A stretch of DNA of 64,000 nt from a virus: positions 1 to 64,000 of the IMG/VR virus record IMGVR_UViG_3300048033_000725; one strand, given 5' to 3'. Shown piece after piece: positions 30,699 through 34,175 of this stretch. The notes beneath the pieces were generated by a model. It was not told where the DNA came from. It saw nothing but the letters and a program-made list of their open reading frames with translations, and did not search any database. Both the position numbers and the translations under genes were made by a program. The first letter of the stretch is position 1, and each line of letters starts with the position of its first letter.

Positions 30699-30716
30699 AA
30701 CCAAATTAATTTGGTT
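30699..30716. repeat. Perfect 18-bp palindrome
   Basis: AACCAAATTAATTTGGTT is its own reverse complement. It overlaps the stop of the CmoA-like gene and sits 8 bp upstream of a -35 box, so it could be an operator or a weak hairpin. No T-run follows on the minus strand. Confidence 0.7.
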
Positions 30717-31399
30717 TATTTGATAGCGATTGCACCCACGAACAAGTGGTTCTGCCAGAACGTCTGAACACTTTCGAAACCAGCAATCTCAAGCATTTCA
30801 TTAAGTTCAGACCATGTGTTGGGTTTGAGCATGTGTCGTAGTGTTTGCTCTTTATCCATGATATCTTCGGCTTCGAAACTCTCACGCTTGAAATCGTAGT
30901 ACATGAAAGTAAGCATGTCTTGTACCTTTGAGGAACAGGAATATGTCTTTTCACCAAAAATAAATGCACCACCTGGATTCAGTGCTTCGTACACTTGGTT
31001 AAGTGTTTCTTGTCGGTCTGCACGAGGCATGAACTGCAAAGTGAAGATTGAAGTAATCAGAGATGCATTGTACATATCTGCATTACGAATATCTTCACTT
31101 TGCAACTCAAGGTCATCGGTCTCATATTCCATCATACGCTTCTGCATATCTTCATAGAAACCAGCCGCACATTCAATACCAACGTAATGTGCGTCTGGTG
31201 CGAAAGTACGATTTTGGTCAATCATTGCACCAAGTGTCTTACCTGTCGAACAACCCAAGTCATATACATGTGTGTGGTCTTCAACAAAGTATTGTGACAT
31301 TTTTACAATATCATCGTGTAGTGTAGAATAGTGACGAATTGATTTGTCAATGTGGTTATCGAAACCCTCATCACGGTGTGCAAAAGTAAAATCAGCCAT
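30716..31399 (-). CDS. CmoA-like carboxy-SAM synthase family protein
   Basis: 227 aa. A Rossmann SAM-binding fold with VYDLGCSTGK (motif I, residues 45-53), IFTLQFM (118-124), ALNPGGAFIFGEK (139-151), YYDFKRE and a C-terminal FWQNHLFVGAIAIK. Hand alignment to E. coli CmoA runs from residue 13 to the end with the same motif order, much closer than to ordinary methyltransferases. CmoA makes carboxy-SAM for tRNA cmo5U. Here the gene overlaps the DNA cytosine methyltransferase by eight bases, so DNA is a plausible target pathway. Caution: E. coli Arg199, which holds the carboxylate, aligns with Glu184, with Arg188 one helical turn away. Confidence 0.8.
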   Translation of the reverse strand: MADFTFAHRDEGFDNHIDKSIRHYSTLHDDIVKMSQYFVEDHTHVYDLGCSTGKTLGAMIDQNRTFAPDAHYVGIECAAGFYEDMQKRMMEYETDDLELQSEDIRNADMYNASLITSIFTLQFMPRADRQETLNQVYEALNPGGAFIFGEKTYSCSSKVQDMLTFMYYDFKRESFEAEDIMDKEQTLRHMLKPNTWSELNEMLEIAGFESVQTFWQNHLFVGAIAIK

Positions 31400-32531
31400 T
31401 ATTAAATTCCTTTAGAATGTTCTCATATATTGAAGTAGCAACTGCTTTATACATCAATGGTGCAACTGCACGACCAAGACGCTCAACTTGAGCATCAAAT
31501 TCACCTGTTAGAATATAATCTTCTGGGAAACCCATCAGACGTTTACATTCTTTGATTGTCAATTTACGATTTGCTTCTGGGTGAAACACACCAGACATAC
31601 CACGCTTCTGACCTTGCTGAGTTAGAGTTGGAGAAGGCATATCAGGACACGGACGTATCATATTGAAACAACTTGCCTTCGGGTTCCAATCTCTAAACTG
31701 TGGGTCACTTGGTTTTGTGTGCTTTGGTGGGTTGAACGGAAGAGGTTCAATAAACTTCTTCTGGTATGAACCCTCGACAAAATCAAGCAACATCTGAACT
31801 TCTTCTTCATCATTTTCAATATCAGCAAGTGCTTCACGCATACTAATATGCTTTTCTATAGTCGGTTGAGGGAATACATTATGCAAATTCAACCAAGAGA
31901 TACCAACTTTATCGCATACATCTTCACGAACACAAATAAAGATTGTGCGTTCTCTTGCTTGAGGTACACCATAATTTGCACCATTCAAAACTTCATAAGT
32001 TACATTATAACCAATCTCTTCGAATGCATTGATAAACGCATTTAATTTACCTTTCGCTTCACCGAAAGTAATGCCCTTAACATTTTCTGCAACGATAACT
32101 TTTGGCTGTACACCTTCAGCAATGCGAATAAATTCATAAAAGAGGTCTTCGATTGCGACTTGCTTTTTACCGTCTGAGTAGTTCTTCTCTTTACCCCAAC
32201 CCTTTTCTCGCTTTCCTGCGACTGAGAAAGCAGAGCAAGGAGGTGAACCGTCAAGTATGTCGAGTTCGCCTTTAGCAACTCCCGCCATATTAAGAAAGTC
32301 TTCTGGTGTGTATTTTTTGATATCATCGACAAGTACCTTTGTGTCAGGGAAGTTTGCAGTATATGTCTCCACTGCCGCCTCTACAAACTCATTAATCAAA
32401 AGTATGTTCGAACCAGCCAAACGATAACCAAGAGACGAACCGCCGCCCCCTGCAAAGCAACTAATTGTAGTAAATTTTTTCTGAGATGATAGTGCTTTCA
32501 CATCATCAACAGTATATTTTTCATATCTCAT
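31392..32531 (-). CDS. DNA cytosine-C5 methyltransferase with atypical motif X (possible carboxymethyltransferase)
   Basis: 379 aa. All catalytic motifs are present: SCFAGGGGSSLGYRLAG (I), GSPPCSAFS with nucleophile C99 (IV), AENVKGI (VI) and YGVPQARERTIFI (VIII). Motif X should read G-N-(A/S)-V; here it is RLGRAVAPLM, with Arg354 replacing the conserved Asn. In an engineered bacterial enzyme, a basic residue at this Asn position allowed use of carboxy-SAM in place of SAM. Together with the overlapping CmoA-like gene this suggests cytosine carboxymethylation. The recognition sequence is unknown. It has an early promoter (32561-32589). Confidence 0.93.
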   Translation of the reverse strand: MRYEKYTVDDVKALSSQKKFTTISCFAGGGGSSLGYRLAGSNILLINEFVEAAVETYTANFPDTKVLVDDIKKYTPEDFLNMAGVAKGELDILDGSPPCSAFSVAGKREKGWGKEKNYSDGKKQVAIEDLFYEFIRIAEGVQPKVIVAENVKGITFGEAKGKLNAFINAFEEIGYNVTYEVLNGANYGVPQARERTIFICVREDVCDKVGISWLNLHNVFPQPTIEKHISMREALADIENDEEEVQMLLDFVEGSYQKKFIEPLPFNPPKHTKPSDPQFRDWNPKASCFNMIRPCPDMPSPTLTQQGQKRGMSGVFHPEANRKLTIKECKRLMGFPEDYILTGEFDAQVERLGRAVAPLMYKAVATSIYENILKEFNNG

Positions 32532-32560: not shown

Positions 32561-32589
32561 ATTATCGCACACTTTTATGCGGTTGTCAA
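32561..32589 (-). promoter_or_regulatory. Early promoter for the cytosine methyltransferase/CmoA-like pair
   Basis: TTGACA at 32584-32589, 17-bp spacer, GATAAT at 32561-32566. The -35 contains the TGA stop codon of the upstream PP-loop gene. Confidence 0.82.
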
Positions 32590-33398
32590 GTAAAAAGTGA
32601 AGATGAGGGCGAATAATTTACATAGTCCCGAACCAAATCCATAGTGCGACCTCTATTGCGATAATTCAACTCATTGTCTTCAAGCAACTTTTCAAAGTAT
32701 TCTGGAATACCTGCGACAAGTTGAAGGTTTGCATGTTTACGTTTCTTGGGCAGTTCGTTGAATTCTTCATATGCTTCAATGATTGGTGCTTTCTGATATG
32801 GCTTGTTAAAGAAGTCATGGTCATACTGCATCATCCAGTCTTTCACACTTTCACGCACATAAGGTGCGACTAAGTTTGCCTCAATCTCTTCGCATAACTG
32901 CTCTTGCTGTCTAATGCCTGCTGGATTGTCTGCACCGAAGTAGTCATTGCGAAACTTGTCGAACAACTCTTTCGTATGTTTAAAATGAATATTCGCACGT
33001 TTAGATACGCCATACCACCCATCTGCCGCAACACCCGAAAGTACATGCTTCTCTTTAATATGCGGATAAACATACAAGAAAGGGAATGTACATTCAACGT
33101 GAGTTTTTTTCTTACAATCGTAATATCGCATCAACCGCAAAAAGTCATCTTTAACATTACTCACTGGAACATCAATTTCATGGTGGTCCCAACCAAAAAT
33201 CTCCGCCGCTTCTTTTGCGGCAATACTGTCTGGAGTTTCTTGACCATTCACATACATTGTATATGTATGAACATTCTTACCCAAACGCATTGCAGAAAAT
33301 GCACATGTTAAACTATCAACACCACCAGACATTAACACGGCAACATCCTTGCTTGGTGCTTCTTCATCTACAATCTGTGTGATTAGTTTATCAATCAT
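32586..33398 (-). CDS. Asparagine-synthase-like PP-loop ATPase
   Basis: 270 aa. VLMSGGVDSL (residues 21-30) is the PP-loop that adenylates a carboxylate or carbonyl. VLSGVAADGWYG resembles the AsnB LSGEGADELFGG motif, and the C-terminal LVAPYVRESVKDWM and KAPIIEAYEEFNELPKKRK follow the AsnB synthase-domain plan. There is no glutaminase domain and no QueC zinc cysteines. It forms amides by activating a carboxylate; the substrate is unknown. Lying beside a predicted carboxymethyltransferase, it could amidate or conjugate the new carboxylate on DNA. Start ATG overlaps the deaminase TGA. Confidence 0.85.
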   Translation of the reverse strand: MIDKLITQIVDEEAPSKDVAVLMSGGVDSLTCAFSAMRLGKNVHTYTMYVNGQETPDSIAAKEAAEIFGWDHHEIDVPVSNVKDDFLRLMRYYDCKKKTHVECTFPFLYVYPHIKEKHVLSGVAADGWYGVSKRANIHFKHTKELFDKFRNDYFGADNPAGIRQQEQLCEEIEANLVAPYVRESVKDWMMQYDHDFFNKPYQKAPIIEAYEEFNELPKKRKHANLQLVAGIPEYFEKLLEDNELNYRNRGRTMDLVRDYVNYSPSSSLFT

Positions 33399-33808
33399 AT
33401 CTTACTCACCTGTACGCCACTTTTAAGTAAAAAGTTAATCCCATCTCTACTTTTATAGTGGTCCCTATAATATATTGTTTTTATGCCTGACTGATATATC
33501 AGTTTTGCACAATCAATGCATGGAGATGCAGTACAGAACAATATTGCACCATCTGCGCTTTCTGTGCTTTTCGCAATCTTTGTGATTGCATTCGCCTCAG
33601 CATGTAATACTTCTCTCTTAGTAACTAAACCAGATTTCGTTTCTTCTTCACATACGTTAGTCCAACCAGCGGGCATTCCATTATAACCAATACTAACAAT
33701 CTTATCATCTTTTACAACCACACACCCAACTTTAAGACGTACCGCAGAAGATAACTGTGCGTATACTTCTGCGGCATCCATATGGGCTTTAATGAACTTC
33801 TGCTTCAT
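33395..33808 (-). CDS. cd: dCMP deaminase
   Basis: 137 aa from ATG 33808, which has GAGGATAG upstream; longer readings lie inside the previous gene. Zinc motifs LHAEANAI (His and catalytic Glu) and CTASPCIDCAKLI (two Cys) are intact, and GYNGMPAGW is typical of phage dCMP deaminases. It converts dCMP to dUMP for thymidylate synthesis, working with dUTPase. It overlaps the preceding gene by 20 bases and the PP-loop gene by four. Confidence 0.94.
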   Translation of the reverse strand: MKQKFIKAHMDAAEVYAQLSSAVRLKVGCVVVKDDKIVSIGYNGMPAGWTNVCEEETKSGLVTKREVLHAEANAITKIAKSTESADGAILFCTASPCIDCAKLIYQSGIKTIYYRDHYKSRDGINFLLKSGVQVSKI

Positions 33809-34175
33809 CACTATCCTCAATTTGCATTTGCTCAAGTGCCTCTGGTGGCATTTCTTCATACAAGTCTTGGTTCTTATGCCAAACATTGAATACATCTTGA
33901 ACGTTAGCGTGGCGAGTTGTTTCCATATCGGCAACTTCTTCGTAGATTTTCTTTTCAAACTCACCGAATGTTGGGTTCATCCACATATGAAGTTCATTGC
34001 CAGTTTCCATATCAGTCACTTCAACAAATACGATTTCTTGCGTCTCTAAAACAAACACGGCTGTCATAGCATCGTCAAACTGTAGCACCCAGGAATCGCC
34101 AAAATCTTCAAACATAAATGGTCCGCCCTCAACAATGCGTAACCCTGTTGCTTCAATCAAGTCATTAAATTTCAT
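33789..34175 (-). CDS. Acidic phage protein, unknown function
   Basis: 128 aa, strongly acidic C-terminus. The N-terminal MKFNDLIEATGLRIVEGGPF is followed by a beta-rich region (WVLQFDDAMTAVFVLETQEIVFVEV) and helices (FGEFEKKIYEEVADM). No family recognised. The first residues (LIE|A at 6-9) look like the head-targeting sites elsewhere in this phage, but the gene is in an early operon, so this may be chance. It is located between the deformylase-like gene and dCMP deaminase. Confidence 0.7.
   Translation of the reverse strand: MKFNDLIEATGLRIVEGGPFMFEDFGDSWVLQFDDAMTAVFVLETQEIVFVEVTDMETGNELHMWMNPTFGEFEKKIYEEVADMETTRHANVQDVFNVWHKNQDLYEEMPPEALEQMQIEDSDEAEVH

Follow-up and report, generated by a model that had tools for sequence, protein, structure and literature searches.

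A CmoA-CmoX-CmoY cassette in a T4-like phage, predicted to hypermodify cytosine by way of carboxy-SAM

What does a phage do with a cytosine-C5 methyltransferase that carries Arg at the place in motif X usually held by Asn, and whose gene adjoins a carboxy-SAM synthase-like gene? Such a pair lies in the 64,000-nucleotide stretch of viral DNA analysed here (the window), which is taken from an IMG/VR virus record of 69,036 bases, itself a fragment. The original prediction saw in it a dedicated DNA carboxymethyltransferase served by its own carboxy-SAM synthase. This chemistry is supported by homologues from Synechococcus phage S-B43 (PMC12783734) and by the conserved Cys, Arg and cofactor contacts, but an enzyme system of this kind was already published in December 2025. 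In S-B43, CmoA produces carboxy-SAM, and CmoX, a homologue of C5-methyltransferases, uses carboxy-SAM and not SAM to form 5-carboxymethylcytosine (5cxmC) at GC sites (Yang et al., Nat Commun, December 2025, PMC12783734). The structure of this enzyme (SpCmoX; PDB 8YF3, 1.9 Å) has R350, replacing N304 of HhaI, in contact with the carboxymethyl group (PMC12783734). A third protein, CmoY, ligates glycine to 5cxmC, and the virion DNA of S-B43 contains the glycyl product, while free 5cxmC is absent from it (PMC12783734). We consider it very probable that the window carries a complete CmoA-CmoX-CmoY DNA hypermodification cassette of a T4-like phage, with steps analogous to those in S-B43. The genes concerned are the following.

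30716..31399, minus strand: CmoA, predicted carboxy-SAM synthase (SAM + prephenate), 227 aa (TIGR00740; PDB 1im8/4gek; S-B43 CmoA)
31392..32531, minus strand: CmoX, predicted DNA cytosine-C5 carboxymethyltransferase, 379 aa (PF00145; best PDB match 8YF3; C99 nucleophile, R354 in motif X)
31461..31481, minus strand: part of cmoX that encodes residues 351-357 in motif X (R-L-G-R354-A-V-A); the R354 codon, computed from the ORF, is 31470-31472
32586..33398, minus strand: CmoY, 270 aa, predicted ATP-dependent amide ligase with an asparagine-synthetase fold and no glutaminase domain (PF00733; S-B43 CmoY)
33395..33964, minus strand: dCMP deaminase-like gene (PF00383, E 3.7e-22)

The cmoX ORF is complete, with an ATG start, and PF00145 covers residues 20-369 (E 5.6e-59). 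We confirmed the motifs that had been described as intact, namely motif I (FAGGGGS), IV (DGSPPC, with C99), VI (AENV, with E149) and VIII (QARER), as well as the unusual motif X, G353-R354-A355-V356, which is read as LGRAVAP. As the residue equivalent to R354 is Arg in all relatives of 91–94% identity (L006, L007, L008 and L086), it is not a sequencing error. The dN/dS values are 0.04–0.11 for CmoX against these four relatives, and 0.06–0.10 for CmoA and 0.04–0.05 for CmoY against four close relatives, which indicates strong purifying selection on each of the three.

Among solved structures, CmoX of the window matches SpCmoX best by far (8YF3, E 3.7e-110, 371 bits), the next match being M.HaeIII with 91 bits. 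R354 and C99 align with R350 and C98 of SpCmoX, gap-free nearby, and the adenine/ribose contacts F25, E47, F48 and D69 correspond to F26, E48, F49 and D70, which are invariant in the alignment. Thus, every published carboxy-SAM (Cx-SAM) contact is retained at an overall identity of about 51%. The target-recognition region has diverged from that of SpCmoX, so that GC specificity of the SpCmoX type cannot be assumed for the window enzyme. A depletion of the GC dinucleotide, as a footprint of modification, was not seen in the window, where its odds are 1.03, a value uninformative on specificity.

An Arg in motif X could also be a tolerated change in an ordinary 5-methylcytosine methyltransferase, with the CmoA-like neighbor being an unrelated methyltransferase. 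Residues other than Asn do occur at this site in phages devoid of CmoA, i.e., Leu in Melnitz phages and Met in Cellulophaga, Parabacteroides and Flavobacterium phages. Yet, wild-type SpCmoX with the same Arg takes carboxy-SAM only (PMC12783734), the best solved-structure relatives of the neighboring protein are CmoA proteins, and CmoA is tracked by Arg, not by Leu, Met or Asn. In the co-occurrence check that had been proposed for the locus, CmoA was present in all six complete phage genomes with Arg (S-B43, S-CRM01, Mcat8, Dickeya AD1, Erwinia Yoloswag and Streptomyces TurkishDelight) and in none of 11 with Leu, Met or Asn (Fisher 8e-5, a p-value that serves as a guide only, as the genomes were hand-picked from the hit list). 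A similar picture emerged for the stretches fetched from IMG/VR: loci with SPPC and Arg had CmoA in 62 of 91 cases and CmoY in 48 of 91, while neither gene was found in the fetched stretches of the 10 non-Arg loci (0/10 for each). The 29 Arg loci lacking CmoA in the fetched stretch are mostly short fragments, and L045, the longest contig among them (40.9 kb), encodes CmoA elsewhere. The original prediction had named Arg being common without CmoA as grounds for its own refutation, and the outcome of this check favors the prediction. Based on the homology with CmoX and the association of Arg with CmoA, we reject an ordinary 5-methylcytosine methyltransferase, a reading that we find barely credible. 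An apparent Lys at the motif X site in L100-L103 turned out to be an artefact of pairwise alignment, as the multiple alignment gives Met.

As for the predicted carboxy-SAM synthase, the CmoA-like neighbor of the original prediction was recovered with TIGR00740 (E 1.5e-37), although its 129.6 bits fall below the curated cut-off of 193.3 of this model for bacterial CmoA; the best non-CmoA NCBIfam family reached only 1e-6. The protein matches the CmoA structures 1im8/4gek (E about 1e-26) and is 56% identical to the assayed CmoA of S-B43. A C-terminal Arg of E. coli CmoA, which we take to be R199, a contact of carboxy-SAM, aligns with Glu in the window protein as well as in the CmoA of S-CRM01 and the assayed one of S-B43; judging by this alignment, the mode of carboxylate binding may be a different one in phage CmoA. 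No match to CmoB was found in the 69-kb record, a fragment, and no tRNA genes were found in the window. Since no CmoB homologue was found in this record, the carboxy-SAM does not seem to be made for tRNA, at least not along the usual route encoded by phages, and we rejected a CmoA serving tRNA via a phage CmoB.

Carboxy-SAM might, in turn, come mainly from the host, with an active CmoX and a phage CmoA that is a mere booster or inactive. In E. coli, SpCmoX was functional with no CmoA other than that of the host (PMC12783734), and CmoA is missing from the accessible surroundings of some Arg loci. However, phage cmoA is under purifying selection and its start overlaps the end of cmoX by 8 bp, as befits a working partner. 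Both features argue against such a division of labor, which we regard as highly improbable.

The original prediction rightly recognized CmoX and CmoA, but missed the ligase gene, cmoY, located 54 bp upstream of cmoX. The encoded protein matches PF00733 (E 7.7e-17) and is 48.7% identical to S-B43 CmoY. It possesses the ATP loop SGGVDS, equals SpCmoY in length and architecture, including the lack of a glutaminase domain, and shares with it the blocks KKTHxECTFPFLYV, ADGxYGVSK and FRxxYF. The presence of CmoY changes the expected end product, which would be an amide, probably glycyl-5cxmC (+115 Da, m/z 343.1), and not the free 5cxmC (+58 Da, m/z 286.1) that had been predicted. Because the carboxyl group is probably capped by CmoY, mass spectrometry aimed at +58 Da and not also at +115 Da could come back empty.

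The capping amine could also be one other than glycine. In this case, CmoA and CmoX would act as proposed while CmoY joins another amino acid or a small amine, and the hypermodified cytosine would be akin to the glycyl form without being identical to it. The published CmoY network comprises several clusters with distinct active sites (PMC12783734); the ligase families are diverse among relatives, with aligned homologues being 31–92% identical to the window protein, and identity to S-B43 CmoY itself is only about 49%. The length, architecture and conserved blocks shared with SpCmoY speak against a different amine, which we hold to be possible, though not the likelier outcome.

For the cassette working as in S-B43, the following steps can be proposed, with the activity, the donor and the glycine transferred by analogy from the S-B43 experiments. 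CmoA would convert SAM and host prephenate into carboxy-SAM. C99 of CmoX would attack C6 of cytosine, and the carboxymethyl group would be passed to C5, with R354, in the usual place of the motif X Asn, holding the carboxylate of carboxy-SAM. CmoY would then adenylate the carboxyl group and join an amine, most likely glycine, to yield 5-glycylcarboxymethylcytosine. The modification probably protects phage DNA against host restriction.

Similar to S-B43, the window encodes CmoX, CmoA and CmoY in one cluster (51, 56 and 49% identity, respectively), and its CmoX retains the catalytic Cys, the Arg and the cofactor contacts of the S-B43 enzyme. The gene order differs, being Y-X-A in the window and A-Y-X in S-B43, and the window has an additional dCMP deaminase-like gene upstream of cmoY, overlapping it by 4 bp. 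This gene precedes cmoY in the five closest relatives (L006, L007, L008, L086 and L087) and is absent in the more distant L009 and L010. Besides the diverged recognition region, the phage itself is different: its capsid protein is nearest (65%) to that of Methylophilales phage Melnitz, and the T4-like surroundings of the cassette include genes for the major head protein, a late sigma factor, an SbcC-like nuclease subunit, a helicase and a DNA polymerase.

Melnitz, the closest phage by capsid, offers a natural contrast. Its HhaI-like methyltransferase is 43% identical to the window CmoX and retains the SPPC motif, yet has Leu in motif X, and CmoA was not found in the whole 141-kb genome. S-CRM01 (NC_015569), in turn, resembles the window in the Arg of motif X, the cmoA-cmoX overlap and a neighborhood with the same core genes of T4-like phages, but differs from it in that no CmoY was found in its whole 178-kb genome; free 5cxmC is therefore possible in S-CRM01. 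The engineered M.MpeI N374K, as cited in PMC12783734, is comparable in that a basic residue at the motif X Asn lets a C5-methyltransferase use carboxy-SAM; going by that citation, it is an engineered enzyme with Lys and a CG target, whereas CmoX of the window is natural, has Arg and is accompanied by a dedicated CmoA.

Several Arg-type loci show further arrangements. In L014, L016, L017, L019, L020, L021 and L022, two different cmoX genes, both with Arg, stand in tandem and are followed, on contigs that extend far enough, by a single cmoA; perhaps, the pair serves two recognition sequences. The CmoX of Dickeya AD1 (L140:456-2585) and Erwinia Yoloswag (L141:483-2591) contains an insertion of more than 300 aa placed exactly between SPP and the catalytic Cys. 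The insertion begins with Cys and ends with HN before the Cys, and by these sequence features resembles an intein inserted into the active site. In Streptomyces phage TurkishDelight (L142:2326-7354), the row consists of two ParB genes, cmoX (Arg), a ligase gene of the glutamine-amidotransferase type and cmoA, and resembles the ammonia-using CmoY class of PMC12783734.

We also found CmoA close to a C5-methyltransferase with the motif X GGVI, i.e., with Gly at the Asn site, in Staphylococcus phages vB-SscS-F1 (L152:2298-4816), which also has a CmoY homologue, and SPbeta-like (L153:4947-6646). When these two phages, chosen for the very reason that they bear CmoA, are added to the complete genomes, CmoA accompanies 2 of 13 non-Arg enzymes (Fisher 0.001). 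The methyltransferase of Psychrobacillus phage Perkons, 49% identical, carries Asn, as is usual, in a genome that lacks CmoA. The Gly-type enzyme with CmoA, set against Asn without CmoA in Perkons, hints that the use of carboxy-SAM may have been reached here independently. On these comparisons, the Gly-type enzyme of Staphylococcus phages is possibly a non-Arg carboxymethyltransferase, a candidate second solution that would escape the published Arg-based search.

Taken as a system, the window locus is already explained and not new, being a complete cassette in another T4-like phage. Its cmoX may even be among the 5,615 published CmoX candidates, as these were collected from IMG/VR and other sets (PMC12783734). 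It is conceivable, but we deem it rather unlikely, that glycine is not the amine joined by CmoY of the window and/or that CmoX recognizes a sequence different from GC, which would amount to an undescribed cytosine hypermodification within the CmoX pathway. What the cassette does illustrate is the close coupling of the Arg signature to CmoA.
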